Origin: Favolaschia claudopus
Lineage: Eukaryota; Basidiomycota; Agaricomycetes; Agaricales; Mycenaceae
Length of the DNA stretch: 64,000 bases
Direction: 5' to 3'
NCBI GenBank assembly: GCA_037176885.1
Contig: JAWWNJ010000090.1
Coordinates: 1-64,000, forward strand
Under the pieces are notes generated by a model. The model had not been told where the DNA came from, did no database searches, and saw nothing but the letters and a program-made list of their open reading frames with translations. The position numbers and the translations under genes were made by a program. How positions within the stretch are numbered: position 1 is the first letter of the stretch; every line of letters begins with the position of its first letter. This document shows positions 9,151-37,550 of the stretch, piece after piece.

Positions 9151-9430
9151 GCCTTTGAGCCCGAGCCCTCCTGAAATACGAAGCCCCGTTTCTCGCCGTT
9201 CCGCGGTATAACCAAGACCCCCCGTTCGTGCTTGATTCCGCGCCGTCGACGCCCCCGTGTGCCAGCCGTTCCGCGGTATAACCAAGACCCCCCCGTTCGA
9301 GCTCGCCGCCGCGTAGTGGGTGTAACTGCCCGGGTCACTGTTAGTGTCCGCGCCATCGACATAAGAGCCCCGCTTCTCGCCAGAGCCGCGCCGGTCGTAT
9401 AAGAACCCCGTCCCGCTGAGCCGCGCCTTC
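9120..9430. repeat. Imperfect GC-rich tandem repeats
   Basis: Units of roughly 65-75 bp share CCGTTCCGCGGTATAACCAA (at 9198 and 9268) and a diverged version near 9390. On the minus strand they spell repeated VIPRNG-like peptides, but there is no gene context, so I treat them as DNA repeats. Confidence 0.5.
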
Positions 9431-13036: not shown

Positions 13037-13348
13037 CAAGAAAAGCTTTCCCTCTGACGACGCCACCGCCAACCGTTAATTAGTGCAGCGACAAGAGGCG
13101 GACTGCTCTCTGCTAGGTGAGCGCTTCATTAATTGTATATTTTTCCGCGTGAAGAATCCTATAACTCACCGCGATATATGAAACAGACAAAGCAAGAAAA
13201 GCTTTCCCTCTGACGACGCCACCGCCAGCCGTTATTTAGTGCAGCGACAAGAGGCGGACTACTCTCTGCTAGGTGAGCGCTTCATTAATTGGATATTATT
13301 CCGCGTGAAGAATCCTATAACTCACCGCGATATATAGGACAGGCAAAG
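13037..13348. repeat. Tandem direct duplication, two copies of 156 bp
   Basis: Units 13037-13192 and 13193-13348 differ at only a few positions; both start CAAGAAAAGCTTTCCCTCTG. Each ends with CTCACCGCGATATATA-like sequence. The duplication lies directly upstream of the plus-strand gene that starts at 13423, so promoter elements may be duplicated. Confidence 0.85.
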
Positions 13349-24785: not shown

Positions 24786-24793
24786 GGAGAAGG
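24786..24793. repeat. Target-site duplication, left copy
   Basis: GGAGAAGG directly abuts the left terminus CACCTGTATT of the KDZ element. The identical octamer abuts the right terminus at 37543-37550. Confidence 0.85.
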
Positions 24794-25458
24794 CACCTGT
24801 ATTACCCACCACAATACTGAAAGTACAGCAGATAAACATTTCTCATCATAGGCTGCAAGTCCAGAGGCGTGGCCTGCCACCATTTTGGTGCCATACCTGC
24901 CATGGAGGGGCTGCCACGGCGGTGTCCTGGGGTGCTTTTGGTAGCCACACCTGCCATATATAGTAACTGTAGTCACATTTAGGGTTGTATTCATCCACCT
25001 CTGCCACCATATTGTTTTGGACGCAAAAAATGTGCCATTCCTGCCACAATAGTGTTTTGTAGTGAAATTTAGGCTTGAATGCGTCCACCTCTGCCACCAT
25101 ATTTTTGTGGGGTAGAAAGTGGTGCCATTCCTGCCACGTATTTGTTTTGTAGTGGAATATGGGGCTGAAGCCATCCACCTCTGCCACGGAAACATTTTTA
25201 GGGTGGATGGGGGGCTTCAGTGTGCCATCCCTGCCACGTAAGTGGAAGTGGGTGGCGACCCTCAGAAAACCCTCCTGCCACTGTTGCCACTTCCTAAAAA
25301 GGAAGGTATGGGCCTTGCTCTGAGGTGTCCTGTGCCATCCCTGCCACACAATTCAGAGTGGGTGGTGACCCTCACAAGACCGTTCTGCCACCGTTGCCAC
25401 TTCCTAAAAAGGAAGGTGTGGGCCTTGCTCAGAGGTGTCCCGTGCCATCTCTGCCACA
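24794..25458 (+). repeat. KDZ left terminal inverted repeat
   Basis: About 665 bp that matches the reverse complement of 36,878-37,542 almost base for base. It is built of degenerate blocks containing TGCCA(T/C)CCCTGCCA-like dodecamers, and its inner part of roughly 110 bp units (anchored at AATTCAGAGTGG: 25,350 and 25,460). A further, more diverged unit continues inward to about 25,620, so the left side holds one unit more than the right. Confidence 0.85.
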
Positions 25459-25631
25459 CAATTCAGAGTGGGTGGTGACCTTCGCAAGAGCCTCCTGCCA
25501 CCGTTGCCACCTCATTTTTAGGAAGGTCTGGGCCTTCCTCAGAGGTGTCCTGTGCCATCCCTGCCACACAATTCAAAGTGGGGGTGGCACCCAAGTTAAC
25601 GATGCCATCCCTGCCATAGTTACTTTTCATA

Positions 25632-28600
25632 CTATTCTACTTCCTTATCCTCATTAGAGATAAGAGCTGTAATCCCGTCGATTATTGCTGCGATCCCCTC
25701 CCCCTCCACCTCCTCGACCTCGTCCTCCCCATCACTGTCATCCTCCCATTCTTCTCCCCCCCTCTCGACGTCCTCCACGGTCATCTCCTGGTCCACAACC
25801 TCGGGCGGCGCAGGCGCCGGTGTGAGACGAGTGCCGGGCAGAAGGCTCCCTGTAAAGCCCTCTCCCAAGTCCTTTGCCATCTGGTTCAGGCGGTCGACGT
25901 GCGCGTCGTCAAACCTTGCTCGCTGCCACCGATACCTGCTGATAAAGAACGCCAGCACCGCGTCGGAAGCACTGACCTCCGCCTCCTTCTTCAAAAGAAA
26001 CTCCCTCTCATCCCTCATCCACGTTATCAACCGCTTGATCTCCACATTCAGTCGAACTATCTCCTCCTTTGCCCGCTTGAGCTTGAAGTAACGGTCAAGA
26101 AGAACACGGGCAGCCGGGGTAGCCCATGCTCTCGCCTCAACGTGCCGTTCCACATCACGGATGATGTCAAACTCTGCCAGAAATCCCAGATCGACAACCT
26201 CCGACCAGTTGAGGTGCCGCCGAGGAGGGTCCATGGCGTCAGCCGCAGTGTTATAGCGCGTGATTGCATTTTGAATTGCCTTGGACCGGACTTGCAGGGC
26301 CTTCGCAATGTGAGTCCGGAGTTTGTAAGCTGCCACGGTTGCCACCAACTCAATAAAAAACAGAGGAACACATTTAATGCTTACCAAGTCCACGCTCTCC
26401 AACTTTAGCAAACTCGAAGATACGTTGGAGTACCAATTTCTCGAGGAGGTCAACCGCACGGCGGTAGCGGCGGTTCGCAACAAGCTCTGCTGCTGCTTCC
26501 CACTCTGGACAACCCTGGGTCCACGACTCCTCAATGTTGAGTCGGCGTTCTGTTTGTTGCACCAGCTTCAAGGCCTTGTCGTAGTTCTCGCGTGCATGTC
26601 GCTTAGCAACCCCATTGAAGGTAGAGTCCTCTACAAAGACTTCTTCAAACCGCTCACTATTGAGTGGCAAAGATGGATGGCATGGCAGGGGTGGCACGGT
26701 TCCGAAAAAACCCTTAGAGTCTACACCATAACAAAACAGCAGAGGTCACTCACAGCCTGGCATCAAGGTTAACGAGCTGCTGGTAGTACTCCATCTGCTC
26801 TGTCTCTTCCTCTGGCTCTTGGGCTAAGGATTGAAGGTACTCCTTTTCCTCTTGCAGCCTCCCCTCAACCATCGCAGGCGTCAGTCCTGCGTCACGGATC
26901 ACCTGCATTACCGCAGACTCCGTCGCCAAGATCTCCAACGCTTGCTTGTAATTGTTGACCAAAAATGTGCCTGGACAACTCTAAGTACTTGAAGCTCGTC
27001 AAGTTTAGCACTCACTGAGATTAGCGTAGCTTTCGTAGGTATCGAGGTGAGCCAAGTATGTGCGAAAGGCTCGCCTTCTGTGCATTACTGAGGCATACCG
27101 AGTGCACCTCGCCAGTCCGTTGGTTTGTGCGAATTTCCGTTCACAGCCCTCCAAGTCCTCCAGCCCCAAGCCCTCGACATAAGTGGAGAGGTGGTCCAGC
27201 TGGCATTTACGATTATGAGCGTGACCGTGGAAAGCCCCCACCAGCATCGTCAACCCATTCTCCTCCGCAAGAGGGCCCAGTGGAGAATTCCGGATAGTTT
27301 TCTTGATCTCGCACCCACAATCATAGCCGCCGCCGATCTTCTTCTTCCTCGGGAACTTCGTAATAATTTCGTGGGTAATGGCCAGGGGATACTTGGCCCT
27401 AGCAAAGCGTCAGCGTGTTCCAAACTGCCACCATTGCCACCCCTGCCACCACTTACAACTCGCCACTCTTCACCATGTCAGCGCCTTTGAAAGTGAACCC
27501 ATGCCGGCAGAGTGCCAGAAAGATACCCGTCTCGTCAAACACCCCCCAACTTTTGGCCGTGTAGTCTTCCGACATATTCTTCCATCGCTCTTTGCACTCA
27601 CTCTCGCCTGGTGGCAACTCTGAAACTGGAATTCGCTGCCACCTCGTTAGCTGCAGCTGCCACGACTGCCACGGCTGCCACGTACTCGTGCTTTCATCTC
27701 CTCCGCAACCCTCTCTTTTGTCCACCTATCCACCTCCTCACGGGTCAAAAAATAGTCTCCACCTGCGGTGGCCGCTCGAGGATCGGCCCGCTCCCTAGTC
27801 CCACGGATAGCAACCCCGTCTTGGTCAAACTGCCCTGCGGCCTTCTTAGCAACCCGCCGCGCTGAATTGTTGCCATCCTCGGTGAAGAACATTGAAAAGC
27901 GCATATCTGGCTCCCCCTCCAAATCATAGGTGCACGTCGGGCAGCAGTTCTGCATCCGCCAGTCCGGGGAGCCCCGGCCGAGCGCTTGCTTCACCCTCAT
28001 CTCCACCACGTCCAGAATCTCATGGTACAGGTCCAAGCACACAGTAAAGCCGTGCGTGCTTGACGGTTTGAACATGCGCTGGTCAAGGTCGGCCAGGGAT
28101 CTAACCCAGGCTTGGATTCCGAGTTGAGGGCAGCGAAGTTGTACAAGGCGGTACATTTCCAAAGCTCGAATTGTTACTGCCGTTTTGGGGCGCGACGGAC
28201 TCGAGGGGATCAAGCCCTGAGACCCAATCGAGGTTACCAGGTGGTCGTCATCAGCATACCAGGCTACATTGGCTTCATAATGACCTGAACACGTTGTGTG
28301 AGAGAGGCGTGGCAGGCGTGGCAGCCGCACTGTGGCACCCGTGGCAGCTGCCAAAGGGGAAACAAGACCACTCACTGAAGAGGTCCAACACCTGTAGCCT
28401 ATGATATCCCTTCACCTCTCTCTCAGGATCCACCTGCGGCGGCCCCTCCAACAAATTCTCATGGTGGGACTCCAACACCATGTAGGCCTCCACCATATCC
28501 GGCATCTTCGCTCGGAAAGCAAGAACGAGCTTTTTAATACGGTCTGTGCGGTCCCTTTTGTCGGTTCCCTTTCTGTAAGGAAGCATTGCAGACATCAACA

Positions 28601-29037
28601 GAGAGAGAAAGGGACCACAAGACTGGGAAAACCTTTTTTTAGCATGAAAGGCTTCCCTTATTGCTGACTCCAGGTCATGTAGCTCACCACCGACGTTGCT
28701 GATTGGAGCAGGTTGATGACCCTCTGCCATATCCTCCCAGTCCTGTACGTTGTCCTCCACCTCCACGGGCAGGTCGTCAGGGATGTCGCGTCGTCGGCTG
28801 CTCTCCGCAGCCTCTTCTAAACAGAGGTTAAGGTCATTGTGCTTGGAGCGCAAAGGCACATTGCAACGCACCATGAGCCCGCGCTGCATTGATGGCTTCT
28901 ACAGCCTCCCGTGCTGCCCTTTTATCCGCTGCAGTGAGTGTTTGTAACCTCCCATCACCGCGCCCCTCCCTCACAGGCCGCTGGAAGACTGCCTTGTGAG
29001 ATTTGTGAGATTGTCGTCTACGGCCCTCCTTGGGCAT
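25632..29037 (-). CDS. KDZ transposase
   Basis: Nine exons: 28872-29037, 28633-28816, 28376-28572, 27686-28284, 27457-27635, 27016-27398, 26754-26970, 26385-26656 and 25632-26329. All are in phase, giving 964 aa. Diagnostic segments: YADDDHLVTSIG; LGIQAWVRSLADLD; the cysteine module CCPTCTYDLEGEP with FTEDGNNSARRV (about residue 290); ERWKNMSED; WGVFDETGIFLALCRHGF (first catalytic Asp region); IGGGYDCGCEIKKT; MLVGAFHGHAHNRKCQ; EGLGLEDLEGCERKF (catalytic Glu region); LVNNYKQALEIL; HARENYDKALKLV; and GFTGSLLPGTRL before an acidic tail. These are KDZ hallmarks. It presumably cuts and reinserts the element by acting on the repeat-rich ends. The start at MPKEGRRRQ is the best ATG, but the N-terminus is the least certain part. 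Confidence 0.85.
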
Positions 29038-29251
29038 GAGATGGTGCCAGCAAACAGGTCGTACGGCATGCCGGAACCCGGCCAATTTCACAATTGGAGC
29101 TGCCACCACTGCCATCAGCATTGCGGCAGCAGGACTTGGTAAATTTTGAGGTCTGCCACCATTGCCACAGAATATAGCTGGCTTTTTTGAGGCTGCCACA
29201 TCTGCCACGACATACAACCTGATATCGGAGTAGAAAACAGCATACATAATA

Positions 29252-30150
29252 CTACTTTGAGACCCATTGGCTGGTGTCTGAGTCCCAGCCAAACCCCTCA
29301 GGCTGCTCAAACACATCAATCTCCCGGGCCTTGCCCTTTCCGCCACTACTGCCACCATTGCCACCGGGGACAGAACACCGAAGACGCAAAGCTCGGAGTG
29401 CGTTCTCCAGAGCTGGAATGAGGGCCTCCGCCTCTTCTTCGTCCTCCGAAGGCGATGCAGCCTCAAGACTTTGCAGCGCCTGCCGCACTGCAACCAAAGC
29501 CCTTGCCTCCGGAATCGAGCTCCCACGGGCGATATGGGAGGCGACCAGGAGGTCATCCGCAGGGGTCAGGAGTGTACCCATCCGGGCAAAGTCCTCAGTC
29601 GCCTCCCGGTAGCTGTCGCGCACTTCTCCGCTCCCCTGCACAACAAAACGCCCCTTGGGGCTTGAGACCCGTGGCGCGAGCCTCGGACCCGTGATTTTGG
29701 GCTTGCGGGGGTTGGGTGGAGGGGTCGAAGGGCGAGAGGAAGGAGGGCTGCTGCTGGGCGTTGAGGGGCGGGAGGAAGGAGGGCTGTCGCTGAAGGCAGG
29801 GTGGTCGTGCTCCCCCGCCTCGCAGCAACGATTCCAGGTCGAGACCGCCTGCGACCACGTATACATCCGGGATGCCCACGGACCCTTGTATTGCCTTGAG
29901 GCTTGCTCAGCGCTGGCCCTAGTATACATATCAGTTAAAGACGGCTCTCAATGAACGAAAATAAAACACAAAAGACGACGAGGATGGGAAAGGGTACACA
30001 AAAAAGGGACTCAAGAACGCACCACGACGAATAAGCTCCCCTGAGCGCTCCTGCCTCTGGACAGGTGATCAGGTAAATCACCTGCGCGGTGTCGAACGTC
30101 ACCCCGTCTTCAAAATGGAGGGGAATTCTGCAGTGTCGCGCATTCGGCAT
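29252..30150 (-). CDS. KDZ cargo: viroplasmin-like/RNase H1-N module protein
   Basis: Exons 30023-30150 and 29252-29918, with a 104 bp intron that splits a Trp codon; 264 aa. After MPNARHCRIPLHFEDGVTFD and a hydrophobic strand, the module GALRGAYSSWASAEQASRQY is completed by YTWSQAVSTWNRCC, a layout like the RNase H1 N-terminal hybrid-binding fold. Then come Ser/Pro repeats (SSRPSTPSS), a helical segment rich in Ala/Leu (LVAVRQALQSLEAASPSEDE), and a short C-terminal FGWDSDTSQWVS. An 18 bp palindrome lies 42 bp upstream of the start. Within the transposon it may bind the element's nucleic acid or assist the transposase (inference). The fold assignment is tentative. Confidence 0.65.
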
Positions 30151-30191
30151 GGTGGAGAGAAAGCGAGGTCACACTGACACGTGGCATCACA

Positions 30192-30209
30192 TGTGACTGT
30201 ACAGTCACA
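30192..30209. promoter_or_regulatory. Perfect 18 bp palindrome upstream of a cargo gene
   Basis: TGTGACTGTACAGTCACA, 42 bp upstream of the ATG at 30150. A related dyad TGTGAC-T-GTCACA lies between the divergent cargo genes at 33189-33201. It is a candidate operator or activator site encoded by the element. Confidence 0.5.
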
Positions 30210-30312
30210 CCTGCCACCTTTGCCACGGCGAACATTCCCAAAATCTTGGGTTATTAAGGCCGTGCCACCGCTGCCACCCAACAAAAATCAGACGAAAATG
30301 CATTCATTCTAT

Positions 30313-30757
30313 CTACGACCCGGTGTTGAGCCCCTCAACCGCCTTCGCCAAGTCCCATTCAATAATACGGCGCCGCCGTTCCTTCCGCGCCTTCCCCACC
30401 CTCTCATGTAAGTCCTTGATAGTTTTTTCGAGACGCATGCCCCGCTTCCCTGCTGCAAGCTGGTCTCGGCACCGCTCGTGATAGATTTTCTGCGCTGCCT
30501 TGGCTTTGGCACGATAGCTGCTGGCCCCCTCCGCTGTGCTTAACTGACGTTCTCGGTAGCTATGTGCAATGTTAGATACAAATTCCATCAAAATTGTGGA
30601 CGCTGCACTTAGCTGCCCGTATCCGACTCTTTTCAGCTAGTTTCGCCTTGTTCCTACGCGGGGTGAGTTACTATCTATCCTAATAGTCTACAGCCACGTA
30701 CTTTTCGCGGTAGCGGGCGCATGCCAGCCGTCTGACCTCAGCAGACTGTGATGGCAT
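30313..30757 (-). CDS. KDZ cargo: small basic helical protein
   Basis: Exons 30702-30757, 30609-30653 and 30313-30559, joined by 48 and 49 bp introns, give 115 aa with consistent phase. The sequence starts MPSQSAEVRRLACARYREKN and continues KAKLAEKSRIRAA, YRERQL and YRAKAKAAQKIYHERCRDQL. This spaced R/K-Y-R-E pattern recalls basic-region-like helices in fungal transposon-associated ORFs. It ends in a predicted coiled coil. It could be a DNA-binding accessory factor (inference). No known domain is claimed. Confidence 0.6.
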
Positions 30758-31327
30758 GAGGGTCCTGGCTGTCCTCGCAAGCCGATTTTTGGAGCTCAAG
30801 GGCTGCTATACAGGTCGTAGAAGCACTCCCTGTAGACTCTTGAGCAAATGAGTTGAAGTAGTTGGTGGGTGGAGACAAGTAGTTGGTGGTCGAAGTCAAG
30901 ATGGTGGGGTATGCACAGACAAATAAGCCACAAATCAGGAAATCTGGGCACCGTCAACTCACTCCGACTCCCTCTATCTAAATCCACAAAAATATTCAGG
31001 AGGCATTCTTAGATACAGGTCTCGGCATACCCTGAGTTTCAAAGCCCAAAACATTTTTTGAGCATTTTTTCCGATTTTCCTTGGGTGGAGTGATGGGCTG
31101 AGTACGCGACCCCTCGGGCTGAGTACGCGATCCTCATTTGCTTTCGTCTCGAGTCACACTGTGGCATGTGTGGCAAACTGCAAAAATTGGGCAACAAATC
31201 TCGTGGCAGGGGTGGCATTTCATTCAAGCGACGCAGTTACAAGATGTAGGTACAAGACGTAGATGCAGGGGGCTACCAAATACAAGAGGGGAGTACAAAA
31301 TGTGAATAAATCTTAATAAAAGTCAGT

Positions 31328-33101
31328 TTAATTGCGAATCGCGGCCTTCAATTCAGCGATTGTCGAAAACATGCCTGCACCCTCCATTGCTCGCTTCAGC
31401 CCGAGCTCACGTTCCTCCTCCACCTCAGCTGGAGTGAGGCTAGCGAAGTAAGCAGTCTCCGACTTGAATCCCCGCTCCACATACCGAAACAGTCCGCCCG
31501 CGGTGTATTGGGTGAACGAATAACGGGTTTCAGGAGACTCTACGGAGATGTTGGAGTGGTAGATGGCAGCGCTAGGGACGAGGATGGTGGAGCCCGGCGG
31601 GAACTCAAGAATAAGCTTACAATCCCATAAAATGAGATGCCCGCCCTTCGTGAAGTCGAAATGACCCAGCGCCGTGATCGCACACCAGCCGAAAGGGACG
31701 TTGTTAAAGTCACGGTGGCCCAAGCTCCAGGTGTGGGGGCCGAGGTTGAAGGTGCATGCCGACCAGATGCTGTTGAGGAAGGGGCGTTGCATGTTGGGGT
31801 AATGCGCGTAGAAGCAGGACATGTAGTCCACATAGAAATCGAAGACGTTGGGCGCCCAGGTGGCAAACAAGCTGGTCGCAAAGCCTGCAAGGGAGATGAA
31901 GGCGGCGTTGGTGATGAGGGCGAGGAAGACGGCGGCGTTGATGACGCCGTTGGTTACATCCATAGGGCCCTCGCGTCCGTTGCCGTGTGACTGCCCCCCC
32001 GTCAAAGTAACGAATTTGCCGCGGCGGTGTTGCTCTGAACCAGCGGGGATGGACATTTGATCACGCGCCTTCTCGAGGGCGGCAACGGCGGGGTCATGGA
32101 CTTTGGAGATGAAGGTAGGGTCCTTGGGGGTGCTGCCGTGCACTGCGAAGATCTTCCCCTCGCTGTCAACGACGGGGCGGGACTCGCCACTAAGGATCAA
32201 TCAGTCAAAGTGAGTGAGAAGGAGTAATTGAATCCACGCACGGAGGAGGCGCCTTCACCAGTGTGAAGTCCTTGCGCTTTGCCCCGCGCCCAAAGAAGTC
32301 CTCCAGTCGATGTAGGTCCGGCTCTTTCTTCCCCTGTACACCAACCCAGCCAGTCGCGGCAATGCGAGCTTTCATGATGTGAAATTTGGTTATAATGGGC
32401 TTTTTGAGGCCGGGGAGGACCTGGTGGCGGCGGGGAGGGGAGCGAGGGTCTGCCAGAGCATCGCGCACTGCATTGGCAGCAGCCCTCTTCTGGTGACGCT
32501 CGCGTCTGGACCCTTGTTTGTTGTGTGAAGCGGTGGTGGCAAGCGTGGCAGTGGCAGGCGTGGCAAGTGTTGCGGTGGCTTTGGGAAGGGATTGGTTTGG
32601 TGGCTGGAGGTCGTCGTTGTCAGGTGAGGAGAGGTCTTCGTGTCGTTCTTGAACAGCAGCAGCTGCTGCAACGGCGTCGACGATCGTGAACTCGGGGGCA
32701 GGAATTCGCCCCCACTCCGAAAAACTCTGGCCCGAGCGGGTCTGTCGGGCGTAAGGGGCGAGAAGCTACGAGAGAGGGACTGCACTTACAGTCCAAAAGG
32801 CCAGCGTATCAATGGCAGAGAAAACACCTTTTCATGGCAGTCAGCAAAGTGGGAGTGGCACGGGTGGCAAAAGAGAGAAAAACTAAGAAAAAAAACGCGC
32901 AGCGCGACACGGTTCCCTGGCAGGGGTACCACTGCCATTCCAGCGCAAAAACTCCGTAAGAAACGCGTCCCACTGCGGTTGCCGTGCGAGGGTACCAGCA
33001 GAGGAGACGCGCTCTGATAGAGAAGGTAAAAAAGAGGGAGAGAAGAAGCAAAGGGATCAAAATATAGGGTAGGAGTGAAGCTCACCTGTGAGCTTCACCA
33101 T
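31328..33101 (-). CDS. KDZ cargo: TET/JBP family 2OG-Fe(II) dioxygenase
   Basis: Four exons: 33086-33101, 32790-32827, 32242-32741 and 31328-32189; introns 258, 48 and 52 bp; 471 aa in frame. The C-terminal double-stranded beta-helix domain shows SLGHRDFNNVPFGWC (HxD metal ligands), ALGHFDFTKGGHLILWD, FPPGSTILVPSA, IYHSN (distal His) and ETRYSFTQYTAGGLFRYVE (2-oxoglutarate-binding Arg). This is the signature of fungal TET/JBP enzymes that oxidise 5-methylcytosine. The N-terminal part has an Ala/Thr-rich linker and a basic stretch (SRREARHQKR-like). All catalytic residues are present. The 16 nt first exon (MVKLT) and the long first intron are inferred from phase agreement and are less sure. 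It is divergent from the gene at 33248. Confidence 0.8.
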
Positions 33102-33247
33102 GGCTTGACGAGACGGGTAGGCAGAGGAGGAGGAGGGAGAGGAGGGAGAGGAAAAGACAAAGACGCGTTTGTTTGGGTGACGGCTGAGTGTGACTGTCAC
33201 ATCAAACGGACTTAGACAATTTTGCTCGTCTGCCACCACATCCACCC
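33102..33247. promoter_or_regulatory. Divergent promoter between dioxygenase and large cargo gene
   Basis: 146 bp separates the two start codons. It holds a purine-rich GAGGAGG tract and the dyad TGTGACTGTCACA at 33189-33201, which matches half of the palindrome at 30192. No TATA box is obvious. Confidence 0.45.
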
Positions 33248-36200
33248 ATGCCTCCACGCCGCAGTGTACGCTCCAAGCCACGCTCCAAGCCGAAATCGAC
33301 CCCTCGCCCTCCGTCTACGCGCACAACGCGCTCCTCTGGACCCGTCGTCGCCCCCGGTGGACCCAGCCGCGTCCCCAGCCCGGAGGACAGCTCCGACGAC
33401 GACGACGACGATGAGGACGGCGCCTCTGCCACCACTTCCGCCCCTGCCACTGAGCCCATTCCCATCGTCGAGCTCGCTGTTCCCCCCGACCCATCTACCT
33501 ACGCAAGCGGCCCCCCAAAAAAAATCAAGAAGAAGGCAGCCCCGTCCTCGAAGGCGCCTACGTCGTCCTCGAGGCCTCAGCTCTCCCCTCCTCCGCCTGT
33601 AGAGACGCTGCGGGAGCCAGACGGCACTCCAGAGCCCTCCAAGAAACGCCCACTGCCCAAGCCGCTGCCCAAAGCTGGCAATCCTCCTGCTGCGCCCGAG
33701 GACGCTCCTCCTGTGCCGTCTGATGAAACCGCTCCTCCTCCTGCACCGTCCGACAAAAACACCCCTCCTCCTACAACACCCACCGCTCCTGCTTCCCGTG
33801 CTGGCTCCGAAGCCCCCGGCACACCCGCTGTTCCTTCATCCCCGTCGCAGCCTCCTCCTGCAACACCCACCGCTCCTGCTTCCCGTGCTGGCTCCGAAGC
33901 CCCCGGCACACCCGCTGTTCCTTCATCCCCGTCGCAGAAATCTGCTCCCAGCACACCCCGTCGTGCTGCCGCCCCTGCCACCGACAACTCGCCCTTCCTT
34001 TCCCCCGACTCTACACGTAGGACCAACGAGGTCTTGGGGCGCAGCGACGAGGATTTTGGGGAGTTGGTGGGCCACGGCAACGATGGCGATAACGACAACG
34101 CCTTCCTGAATGGCCCGCTTCCGCCGCGCGCTCCCCGCTCTATCACTATCAGCGAGGAGGAGTTGACACGCAACATCTACGCGTCGGTCGCGCTGGATGC
34201 GGCGAGGGTGGCGAGGATGGAGGCGTGGGACTCGCACCATCGTCGGCTCGCCCGCGTAGCTCAGTTTAGGGCGGCGTTCAAGGCAGCAGCACAATGGCCG
34301 GTTGGAGTGGAAGACAGGGAGAAGGAACGGGAGGACAAAGGGAAGGGGAAGGCCAAAGAGGGGAGGGAGCAGAAACGGCGTGACCCGCGCGCGGCGTCTG
34401 TGGAGGAGGTGGAGGACGAGTACGACGTGGCATGGCGTGAGAGAACGGCGAACTCAAATGCGAACTCAGACGCCGAGGAGGAGGAGTCCTTGACTGGGGC
34501 AGAGGGCAAGAAGAAGCGGAGTGGGTTGCGCGCCGAAGCCCGTGAATGGTACGCGGCGTTTGAGGAGAAGGTCGACGAGGTGGCGGAGAAGCTTGGGGTT
34601 TCGAAGAAGGTTGCACGAGCGTATCTGAGCGGGGCGAGCGAGAGGGCGAAGAAAGACAAGAGGGGGTACAATGAGAGGACGGCAAAGGTGTGGTGGCATT
34701 TAAAGGAGTACAACAAAAGTATGTGCCACGTCTTTTACGTCCGTTTCCTTTCCTGTGCTGACACTACCTTAAGACCCCGCCAATGACACCAAGATCGGCA
34801 TGAGTGAGGCTCACAGAATGTATTCCCACCGCGAGTTCGACAACGTGTCGCGAGAATGGACTGCTGCCGACCTCGAGCAGCTTCGAGCAGATTACCTGGC
34901 GACGCATCAAGAGAAGGAGATTGAACCCCTTTCGGGCACGGCGGCTGCGAGGGACGCAGCTAAGATTGCGCGGTGGTTTCAAGACGAGGTAAGTTTGGTG
35001 GCAGTCGTGGCAGTATCACCCGTGGCAGCTGGAACTGACACATCATTCTGTAGCTCGTGCTGCTGGAGCGCCGCACGGGTGCGCGAGGCTTCGTTGTCAT
35101 CGCTCCGAGTTCAGTGAGCTCAACAATCCGCGTCCACACCCTCGGCTCCGAAAACAGCATGCGCTTCTTCCCTGAGCAGCTGCGGAAGGAGGCGCATGTC
35201 TTCGGCAACCAGTTCTCGGTCTGGGCCTGCGCCGACGCCGCCAAGGAAGAAGCTTCGGAGCCTGAGGAGCGTGTGAAGCCCGAGGGGGCGACGGAGCTCA
35301 GGAAGGAGGTTTCAAACGAGTTGACTCGGCAACTCAGTGAGTGTCCCAGTTTCTGTCGGTTACGTTTCCTTTTCAACGTTTCTGTACCAGGCGAGATCAC
35401 TGGCTTCCAGTACACCTCAATGCCATACTCGACCTTCAAGGCTTCAGTCAGCGCTGCGCGTGGCATCAATATCCGGGGGTGGCCTGATGAGGTCCAGTGG
35501 GGAACTCCCTCCAACTTCAGCGGCCCCGCTACTCAGCAAGTAGGGCGTATCTGGGACCTGCTGTTTAGCGGCGTGATCCAGTTCTATCACATGAAGAAGG
35601 ATGAGTGGGACGACATCAAGGCTGAGGTGGCAGAGGAGAAGAAAGAGAAGAAGGCGGCGAAGAAGTTGGCAAAGAAGGAGGGGAAGGGGGAGGAGAAGAA
35701 GACAAAGGGGGGGAAGAAGGCAGCGGGAAAGAAGAAGAAGCAGGAGGAGGAGGAGGACGAAGAGGAGGAGGAGGAGGAGGAGGTGCCAAAAAAGAAGAAG
35801 AAGAAGCAGGCGAGGTTTAAAGAGGTGGAGGAGGAAGAACCGGAGGCAGAGTCGACTCCCGAGCCCCCTAGCCCCAAGCCGAAGGGAAAAGGCAAGGGGA
35901 AGGGCCGGGCCAAGGGGGGTAAAGAGGCAGAGGAGGAGGAGGAGACCCGTCGTTCCACCAGAGGGCAGAAGCGCAAGCGGGTGCCTGAAGCCCCAGCGAC
36001 GGATGACGGGGAGGATGAAGTTGCGGATGAGAGCGACGAAGCACCCCCCAAGAAGTCAAAGACCTCAGCTGCCACCCGTGCCACCGCCGCCCCCGTCAAC
36101 AAGTCGAAGTCCAGCTCGTCTGCCACGTCTGCCACCGCCGCCCCCGTGAAAAAGTCCAAGTCCAGCTCTGCCACGCCTGCCACCGAGCCCAAGAAGAGAA

Positions 36201-36664
36201 AAGCGCCGACCAAGCCGTTGGAGGATGAGGGGGAGCGGGCTAGGAAGCGGCAGAGGGTGGAGGTCGTCATCAAGAAGCCGGCATTCAAGCACCGGCGGAA
36301 GGAGTTCCCCAGCAACTCCGTGGTTGGTGATACCAGCAGCGAGCAAGAGGATGGTGGCAATGGTGGCAAGGGCGGCGGAAACAGTGACGGGGGCAGTACG
36401 AGCGGCCCCGTGGCTTCAGGTTCAGGGTCCGGGGGAGGGGATGGCGGTGTGGTGGTGAAGAGCCGCAAGGACATGACCCCAATGGAGAAGCAGGATGGGA
36501 ACAAGAAGATGGCGGAGGAATCCAAGGCTAGGGATGCAGCGAGAAGGGCCAAAGCTGGCAGCTCCAAGGCCCCCGCCGTCGCCAAAACCCCCCGCAAAAG
36601 CCTTGCCGAGATCGATCGTGCCGGCTCGGAGGAGTACGAGGACTCCGACTCCTCCTCCGATTAG
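33248..36664 (+). CDS. KDZ cargo: large charged protein of unknown function
   Basis: Exons 33248-34718, 34774-34988, 35054-35336 and 35391-36664, all in phase; 1080 aa. The N-terminus is basic, then a Pro/Ser/Ala-rich region with a 29-residue tandem duplication (TPTAPASRAGSEAPGTPAVP and its repeat). The central core (about residues 430-720) looks globular: REWYAAFEEKVDEVAEKLGV, ARAYLSGASERAKK, AHRMYSHREFDNVSREW, FVVIAPSSVSSTIRVHTLGS, NQFSVWACADAAKE and VGRIWDLLFSGVIQFYHM. The C-terminal 350 residues are Lys/Glu runs with several basic patches of nuclear-localisation type and a Ser/Asp end. It is the only plus-strand gene of the element. Chromatin or nucleic-acid binding is plausible from composition, but no domain was recognised. 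Confidence 0.7.
33783..33956 (+). repeat. 87 bp in-frame tandem duplication in the cargo gene
   Basis: Two nearly identical 87 bp units encode a 29-residue Pro/Ala/Ser segment, starting at CACCGCTCCTGCTTCCCGTG in each. This suggests recent slippage or unequal exchange within a disordered linker. Confidence 0.8.
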
Positions 36665-36877
36665 AAGACCTTCCTCCTGCTCGTTGTCTGCTGCTCCCCG
36701 CCCCTGCCTCGCCTTTTTGCTTGCTTTGAGAATCGTCTCGAGGCCGGGGGGTTTTTTTTAACTGAATTACATATATGCTGTATCACTAGTACTACTGACG
36801 CGTGCGCAAACGGCGCGAAATAAAAAAAATATCTTGCTGTTTTGAAATAATGTTAGAGGTCAAAATAAAAAAGAGTC

Positions 36878-37542
36878 CGTGGCAGGGGTGGCACAGGACA
36901 CCTCAGAGCAAGGCCCACACCTTCCTTTTTAGGAAGTGGCAACGGTGGCAGGAGGGTCTTCTGAGGGTCACCACCCACTCTGAATTGTGTGGCAGGGATG
37001 GCACGGGCCACCTCAGAGCAAGGCCCATACCTTCCTTTTTAGGAAGTGGCAACAGTGGCAGGAGGGTTTTCTGAGGGTCGCCACCCACTTCCACTTACGT
37101 GGCAGGGATGGCACACTGAAGCCCCCCATCCACCCTAAAAATGTTTCCGTGGCAGAGATGGATGGCTTCAGCCCCATATTCCACTACAAAACAAATACGT
37201 GGCAGGAATGGCACCACTTTCTACCCCACAAAAATATGGTGGCAGAGGTGGACGCATTCAAGCCTAAATTTCACTACAAAACACTATTGTGGCAGGAATG
37301 GCACATTTTTTGCGTCCAAAACAATATGGTGGCAGAGGTGGATGAATACAACCCTAAATGTGACTACAGTTACTATATATGGCAGGTGTGGCTACCAAAA
37401 GCACCCCAGGACACCGCCGTGGCAGCCCCTCCATGGCAGGTATGGCACCAAAATGGTGGCAGGCCACGCCTCTGGACTTGCAGCCTATGATGAGAAATGT
37501 TTATCTGCTGTACTTTCAGTATTGTGGTGGGTAATACAGGTG
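36878..37542 (-). repeat. KDZ right terminal inverted repeat
   Basis: Reverse complement of 24,794-25,458 with very few differences; the outer 40 bases are identical. It has two of the roughly 110 bp inner units against three to four on the left. Open frames inside both copies code the same accidental peptide, as expected for an inverted repeat. Confidence 0.85.
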
Positions 37543-37550
37543 GGAGAAGG
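37543..37550. repeat. Target-site duplication, right copy
   Basis: GGAGAAGG immediately after the terminal CAGGTG; identical to 24786-24793. Confidence 0.85.

Follow-up and report, generated by a model that had tools for sequence, protein, structure and literature searches.

How does the word that builds the ends of a transposon come to fill the introns of the genes it carries? The question is raised by a KDZ DNA transposon of Favolaschia claudopus (GenBank assembly GCA_037176885.1, contig JAWWNJ010000090.1) that lies within the window, by which we mean the whole stretch of 64,000 nucleotides that was analysed (positions 1 to 64,000 of the forward strand). The explanation towards which we lean, based on sequence comparison and on the analogy with VANC proteins of plant VANDAL transposons, is that the word, GTGGCAG or its complement CTGCCAC, is a putative binding site of a protein encoded by the element, kept by selection and probably serving to counter silencing.

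We counted the core hexamer, TGCCAC/GTGGCA, on both strands, in addition to the 7-mer GTGGCAG/CTGCCAC. The hexamer occurs 29 times in the 1328 nt of the terminal repeats (21.8 per kb), 21 times in 1063 nt of introns (19.8 per kb; first-order Markov mean 1.1, maximum 6 in 1000 runs) and 15 times in the 1261 nt of intergenic parts of the element (11.9 per kb), compared with 24 times in 8433 nt of exons (2.85 per kb) and 21 times in the remaining 51251 nt of the window (0.41 per kb). The intron total counts one intron of the TET/JBP-like gene (hereafter TET) as 24 nt; its revised length is 48 nt, and it is motif-free. Four copies lie in the 388 nt adjoining the terminal repeats, and none in the 276 nt of a possible gene 5. 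The motif is therefore concentrated in introns, as the original prediction had claimed, and 0 or 1 core copy was found in 7 of the 14 introns counted. The same prediction held that exons carry far fewer copies, which is correct per kb but does not apply equally to all genes. Tested against synonymous shuffles (1000 per gene), the transposase exons are at chance level (2 core copies, 1.44 expected) and those of gene 3 hold 2 copies with 0.38 expected (53 of 1000 shuffles as high), whereas the exons of TET (5 copies, 0.97 expected; 2 of 1000 shuffles as high) and of gene 4 (15 copies, 3.4 expected; 0 of 1000) exceed chance.

The copies are regularly spaced. For 66 of the 93 inside the element, the same strand carries a TGCCAY partner at a distance of exactly 9 bp, compared with none of the 21 outside it, and among same-strand motif distances of up to 30 bp, 43 equal 9 and every other distance occurs at most 6 times. 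Among KDZ families of the genome, which we label with letters, the pair sequences of A and E are TGCCACNNNTGCCAC and CTTCCAYNNCTTCCAC, respectively. In a search of the 264.6-Mb genome (460 contigs), the pattern TGCCACNNNTGCCAC was matched 1091 times and its reversed control 133 times; of 61 pair matches listed on contig C1, 60 lie inside one element.

Seven introns had been named as containing the word, and all seven are GT...AG on the strand of their gene. The exact 7-mer is present in five of them (beginning at 26330, 27399, 27636, 28285 and 34989), whereas introns 26657-26753 and 32828-33085 hold the core TGCCAC alone, in two copies each. Intron 27636-27685 reads GTAC-GTGGCAG-CC-GTGGCAG-TC-GTGGCAG-CTGCAGCTAACGAG-GTGGCAG, matching its earlier description as four motif copies of which the last is the acceptor, and intron 26330-26384 does end in a GTGGCAG that forms its acceptor. 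The transposase junctions at aa203, aa402, aa590, aa662 and aa753 agree with the NCBI transposase of the copy on contig C7, which skips 17 residues at aa462, as if the acceptor were later. Three gene-4 junctions agree with the NCBI protein of the copy on contig C29, likewise 1080 aa long. For the first TET intron, the NCBI model P0126 differs and the homologue P0128 supports our model; P0128 also places the acceptor of the 48-nt TET intron. According to the F. claudopus genome paper, mRNA sequences came from RNA-Seq.

Introns such as 27636-27685, mostly motif copies with one serving as splice site, could have arisen from the repeat itself by intronization or introner-like gain, and the original prediction had listed such a conversion into introns among the ways in which the repeat might spread. 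We aligned the transposase, with introns allowed, to 30 KDZ loci of the genome, several of them near-identical within a family; nine of these loci, at 42-47% identity and with neither word (CTGCCAC or the CTTCCAC described below) in any intron, formed the outgroup set. Intron positions are common to the word-free loci at aa203 (9/9), aa462 (9/9), aa590 (8/9), aa753 (8/9) and aa661-663 (6/9), and two of the missing cases come from one locus, L050, where the alignment stops early. Intron aa402 (27636-27685) occurs without either word in 5/5 loci of family E and in the locus of family F, and its position is also found in L044. In family E, gene 4 has an intron that matches 34989-35053 in residue and phase and contains that family's own word. 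A further locus, L045, is short and decayed, with one CTTCCAC and E-like intron lengths; it looks like a copy of family E and was excluded from both the nine word-free loci and the six loci of E and F. The comparison, which covered transposase introns and gene-4 introns, gave no new intron position at motif copies among the loci compared. As the positions are common to loci with neither word and to family E, we reject an origin from the repeat for the introns compared and give it almost no credence.

Instead, the aligned sequences indicate that the word colonised older introns, two of which are longer where it is dense. Intron aa203 is 48-60 nt long in loci without TGCCAC, 88-91 nt in family A, 156 nt in D and 186-207 nt in B and C. 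In most TGCCAC-free loci, intron aa662 measures 47-62 nt (85 and 86 nt in two); it reaches 97 nt in A, 167 nt in D and 220-295 nt in B and C. Across the 14 loci of families A-D, five transposase introns together hold 14-36 copies of TGCCAC per locus, compared with 0-2 in the exons. The acceptor of aa753 is GTGGCAG or ATGGCAG in the A-D loci compared and ordinary in the others; no locus compared has the word in intron aa590. In the A-D loci checked, each intron carries the word on a constant strand, except that aa203 of families B and C also holds additional copies in the inverse orientation.

The word might instead act in RNA, as a splicing signal or an intron hairpin. Two acceptors in the window are formed by it, and intron aa203 of B and C, in which the word forms inverted arms, folds strongly (z -8 to -14 in L029, L033 and L041; 60 shuffles each). 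We nevertheless judge this very unlikely: the same word occurs in the terminal repeats and between genes, its orientation varies between introns, and the window introns examined fold no better than shuffles. Because unusual folding was found only in aa203 of B and C among the introns examined, a hairpin was rejected as the common function.

To follow the word across families, we counted 7-mers in families A-H and in a control stretch of the window, with no word chosen in advance. CTGCCAC ranks first among the 7-mers of each of the families A-D (z 14 to 33), CTTCCAC among those of E and F (z 11.0 and 11.4), and a lag of 9 is the first or second lag in all six. In a transposase tree built by a quick method, the 7 CTGCCAC rows and the 3 CTTCCAC rows each fall on one side of a branch, with support of 100 and 99 in the Shimodaira-Hasegawa-like approximate likelihood-ratio test (SH-aLRT), and Mycena proteins adjoin each. 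Mycena galopus and M. leptocephala carry relatives of the two clades. The words of family E (GTGGAAG/ATGGAAG or CTTCCAC) lie in the same introns and the same orientation as in A: at aa462 and aa662 of the transposase in 5/5 E loci, and at gene-4 residue 562, phase 0, in the single E locus compared. The gene-4 proteins of A and E are identical at 106 of 332 residues, and two other gene-4 introns are common to them. In family F, the aa462 copy has the opposite orientation. Across the sequences compared, the word thus appears to track the family, in ends and introns alike, with CTGCCAC in one clade and CTTCCAC in its sister. Because the z-score of the E/F word is no higher than that of the control, it is the 9-bp pairing and the shared places that support the case for these two families.

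Several features of these families were recorded in passing. To judge by match coordinates, the gene-4 intron at residue 562 may be missing from family B. On contig C36, family E has inverted repeats ~20 kb apart and many short relatives; no target duplication was seen for it. Transposases of this family lie equally near the contig start at C81:1763 and C244:1763, which suggests subterminal duplication or a shared contig end; another is at C9:8366. One KDZ family without either word, at L061 (C170:90501-99500), has 12 copies of GTCGAC, five of them within 90773-90850, and a top lag of 11; GTCGAC is possibly its own end word.

Conservation was measured in two further copies, on contigs C64 and C7, whose divergence from the window copy is 6.1% and 5.2% of shared columns, respectively. 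In introns and intergenic parts, with CpG excluded, the sites changed in C64 are 1/198 in the motif, 24/230 within 6 bp of it and 128/1863 elsewhere; in C7 they are 1/193, 29/224 and 97/1878. Motif sites differ from near sites (Fisher p = 2e-6 in C64 and 9e-8 in C7) and from the remaining sites (p = 2e-5 and 6e-4), and the core hexamers of these parts change at about a tenth of the rate of their other sites. Whole hexamers were kept in 33/36 cases in each copy, compared with anagram hexamers at 53/81 in C64 (p = 0.0019) and 60/81 in C7 (p = 0.02). Terminal copies are better kept against C64 (p = 0.007), and conservation is equally strong at internal and terminal sites.

These values bear on passive spread, in which slippage or tiny gene conversions would multiply a 9-bp minisatellite wherever it is harmless. 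Such a process fits the strong 9-bp lag, the arrays of 55, 90 and 110 bp, the copies in low-complexity coding parts and the faster change of non-coding sites up to 6 bp from the motif. It does not fit the far slower change of hexamers than of linkers, the poorer retention of anagram hexamers, the word-poor interiors of short copies or the joint difference of ends and introns in the E/F clade, and we consider it decidedly improbable.

The short copies share the start CACCTGTATTACCC with the window element and four further full-length copies (12.7-17.2 kb). There are five of them (3.6-4.4 kb), and L022 is a further fragment with one end missing. Exact 8-bp target duplications flank 5/5 full copies and 4/5 short copies; in the fifth, L020, 7/8 bases match. 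The short-copy interiors hold 12, 4, 4, 5 and 4 sites, which corresponds to 1.8-2.3 per kb in four and 4.2 per kb in L017. Since these interiors are word-poor, non-coding element DNA alone does not gather the word to the same degree, which argues against simple opportunity in any non-coding DNA.

The main rival is a role in transposition only, with the internal copies as surplus transposase-binding sites that assist end pairing or limit the transposase by titration. Subterminal transposase-binding repeats are found in Ac and En/Spm. Internal and subterminal transposase sites are also known from P elements, in the portions of that literature covered here; in the present element, the inverted repeats are packed with arrays of the word, and short mobile copies retain the end arrays. 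On the other hand, the internal sites are as conserved as the terminal ones, yet short copies moved with few of them inside. We regard a role in transposition only as unlikely, although it deserves weight.

Dispersed repeats are plausible targets of defence, and a host silencing factor might recognise sites that the element is unable to lose. However, the element conserves these sites, short copies have few inside, and a harmful target would be expected to vanish from introns first. We hold this explanation to be highly unlikely; the original prediction's suggestion of silencing targets gained no support, given that the element keeps the sites, and some host role is possible.

By contrast, the suggestion of internal protein binding is supported indirectly, by hexamer conservation, the fixed 9-bp pairing and the family-specific word common to ends and introns. 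We favour the binding-site explanation because the word is conserved, changes jointly at ends and introns, is scarce in short copies that moved, and matches the VANC21 pattern. The 9-bp-spaced pair would be bound by a DNA-binding protein that the transposon encodes; the sites would be required at the ends and also retained across the gene-bearing body, with introns, intergenic regions and low-complexity coding stretches as the places where sites fit. Sites would have filled pre-existing introns, stretched some of them and taken over splice sites where the final AG of GTGGCAG served. A shift in the specificity of the protein would change the dispersed sites too, giving CTGCCAC in one clade and CTTCCAC in its sister. 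The internal sites would most likely serve to keep the genes of the element from being silenced, as VANC does on VANDAL, with the TET/JBP-like enzyme of the element as a possible effector. The protein, its binding, its anti-silencing role and the demethylation are what we infer here. A more specific version, that anti-silencing evolved in TET-carrying mushroom KDZ elements independently of plants, with gene 4 or gene 3 reading the 9-bp-spaced word and bringing TET/JBP while word and reader change together, is a tentative proposal that we would not bet on.

The protein that might read the word has three candidates, gene 4, gene 3 and the transposase, and nothing decides between them. The transposase and the TET-like gene are present in all seven stretches compared (the window and one each of B, D, E, F, G and H). 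Genome searches gave 17 matches for gene 3 and 42 for gene 4, which lie in families A-D, E or F and in a motif-bearing stretch at C7:2838-2844 kb, apart from five gene-4 matches on C55, C282 and C453 whose family is unassigned. No match was found on the contigs of the nine word-free KDZ loci; as these searches also failed to detect the E copies on C36, which local comparison revealed, this absence may reflect divergence, and genes 3 and 4 are weak markers of motif-bearing families. Between A and B/C, identity is 75% in the catalytic part of TET and 59% in the whole transposase, and the fast divergence of gene 4 resembles that of VANC. Pfam searches found nothing above the cut-off in TET, the main part of gene 3 (226 aa) or gene 4, and no VANC was recognised in this way, no direct comparison with VANC having been made.

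Several results weigh against the binding-site explanation. The control stretch of the window gives an unrelated word, CAGCGGG, at z 11.5, a score at least as high as that of the E/F word, which itself is found in just 2 transposase introns (3-4 copies in 303-365 nt). The top word of family G is a different one (CGTCGAC, z 8.1, top lag 11), and family H has no word above z 4.7, with lag 9 as its second lag. The C64 and C7 copies are only 3.1% apart, so the two conservation comparisons are not independent. Coding copies show no significant excess over anagrams (20/24 vs 247/325, p = 0.29 in C64; 21/23 vs 260/319, p = 0.19 in C7), terminal copies compared with C7 fall short of significance (p = 0.11), and one intron hexamer is deleted in the C7 copy. 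The short-copy interiors still exceed the 0.41 per kb found outside. KDZ families without the word carry a TET-like gene too, and TET was accordingly rejected as the sole reason for the motif. Gene 4 is just 33-37% identical (best stretch) between A and B/C, though both use CTGCCAC. Finally, no DNA-binding domain was recognised: the structure model of gene 4 is poor, with a mean predicted local distance difference test score (pLDDT) of 35.7, and a PDB comparison with the transposase model (mean pLDDT 66.8) gave nothing at E<=0.001.

The element itself is a KDZ DNA transposon by its domain, its defined ends and its 8-bp duplication, and is assigned at the KDZ level. Its transposase matches PF18758 with E=8e-68 and 228.8 bits (cut-off 26.6). 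In the TET-like protein, the H, D and H of the iron-binding HxD...H residues are invariant across 21 aligned sequences, and JBP1/TET is in the UniRef name of 2 among the 120 homologues listed. With no Pfam match and no meaningful PDB sequence match, the TET/JBP name is given for these residues and for relatedness to named TET/JBP proteins, and not for a domain or structure match. The TET-like query has at least 144 genome matches (counted exon-wise), many adjoining KDZ transposases. The low-complexity part of gene 4 contains an 87-bp tandem duplication (98% matches, window 33764-33937), and the C7 copy (G000:C7:2899698-2916781) has an insert of ~4.4 kb near element position 9350. Outside the element, positions 1-24000 of the window carry the different repeated word CAGCGGG/CCCGCTG (28 copies, 4.0 expected), and a 156-bp tandem repeat lies at 13037-13335 (1.9 copies, 96% matches). 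Coordinates are listed in the table.

Table. Features of the KDZ element and of the introns of its genes, in window positions
Feature	Position	Strand	Details
KDZ DNA transposon, Favolaschia claudopus	24794..37542	.	12,749 bp; ends CACCTG...CAGGTG
8-bp target duplications of the window element	24786-24793 and 37543-37550		GGAGAAGG
Left terminal inverted repeat, CTGCCAC arrays	24794..25457	+	664 nt, 98% complementary to 36879-37542
Right terminal inverted repeat	36879..37542	-	partner of left repeat
KDZ transposase	25632..29037	-	984 aa, 7 introns; PF18758 match
Gene 3	29252..30150	-	264 aa
Possible small gene 5	30313..30588	-	uncertain
TET/JBP-like dioxygenase gene	31328..33101	-	471 aa
Gene 4	33248..36664	+	1080 aa, mostly low-complexity, fast-evolving
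Intergenic motif cluster, upstream of transposase start	29101..29208	+	5 core copies
Intergenic motif cluster, upstream of gene 3	30181..30277	.	5 core copies
Intergenic motif cluster, beyond TET stop	31161..31217	-	4 core copies
Coding motif cluster, low-complexity N-part of TET	32536..32565	-	4 core copies, two 9-bp pairs
Coding motif cluster, low-complexity C-part of gene 4	36070..36183	+	6 core copies, three 9-bp pairs
Transposase intron aa753	26330..26384	-	ends ...GTGGCAACCGTGGCAG; acceptor is the motif
Transposase intron aa662	26657..26753	-	2 core hexamers TGCCAC, exact 7-mer absent
Transposase intron aa590	26971..27015	-	motif-free here and in the other loci compared
Transposase intron aa462	27399..27456	-	3 GTGGCA, 9-bp spacing
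Transposase intron aa402	27636..27685	-	50 nt; 4 GTGGCAG, last is the acceptor
Transposase intron aa203	28285..28375	-	4 TGCCAC
Transposase intron aa56	28817..28871	-	motif-free
TET first intron	32828..33085	-	2 core hexamers
Gene 4 intron, residue 562, phase 0	34989..35053	+	3 GTGGCAG

The closest known parallel is VANDAL21 with VANC21, and VANDAL6 with VANC6, in Arabidopsis. In the sections of Hosaka 2017 (PMC5735166) that deal with it, the chromatin immunoprecipitation (ChIP) signal of VANC21 lies in introns, intergenic and terminal non-coding parts, at family-specific motifs and tandem repeats, and VANC varies whereas the transposase is conserved. On that account, the likeness includes short family words in introns, intergenic and terminal non-coding parts, growth of tandem repeats, related families with different words, and a conserved transposase beside a fast-diverging second protein; in the present element, too, we found a family word in introns, intergenic and terminal parts and different words in related families. 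The differences are that VANDAL elements are plant Mutator-like transposons with VANC, whereas this is a fungal KDZ element with no recognised VANC homologue and a TET/JBP-like gene aboard. Here, moreover, the pair is spaced by 9 bp, the word serves as splice acceptor, and binding and demethylation are conjectured.

Fungal KDZ elements that combine a KDZ transposase with a TET/JBP gene are described by Kojima 2025 (PMC12730594). As far as the sections consulted go, the 8-bp duplication is as in Zisupton and one Dileera family and the CA...TG outer bases are as in Kyakuja, but the Kyakuja of Laccaria have 7-bp duplications and no inverted repeats, unlike the 664-nt inverted repeats here; dispersed words are unreported in its passages on introns, subterminal regions and motifs (12 of 20 places). 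Introners (PMC9860276, in part) likewise place transposon sequence inside introns and supply splice sites, whereas the introns here predate the motif and no new position was found among those compared. Subterminal transposase-binding repeats of the P element (PMC7776569, in part) are also short words repeated near the ends, but here the words run on into introns, between genes and into low-complexity coding stretches across a 12.7-kb element. TET-bearing KDZ elements and, in Arabidopsis, dispersed family-specific target words are thus already known. Among the papers listed in our literature search, which left subscription papers mostly outside its coverage, no report of family-specific words in the introns of fungal KDZ elements was recognised; nor did the combination in a fungus, the in-place change of the word in shared introns or the takeover of splice acceptors turn up among them.

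If the anti-silencing explanation is true, plants and fungi separately reached the same transposon escape from silencing, and in fungi it would couple an on-board demethylase to a protein that reads sequence. CTGCCAC and CTTCCAC would then offer a natural pair for studying how the specificity of a reader changes while dozens of sites change. The element also shows that binding-site-like repeats can overwrite introns, up to the splice acceptor, in introns that are not new.

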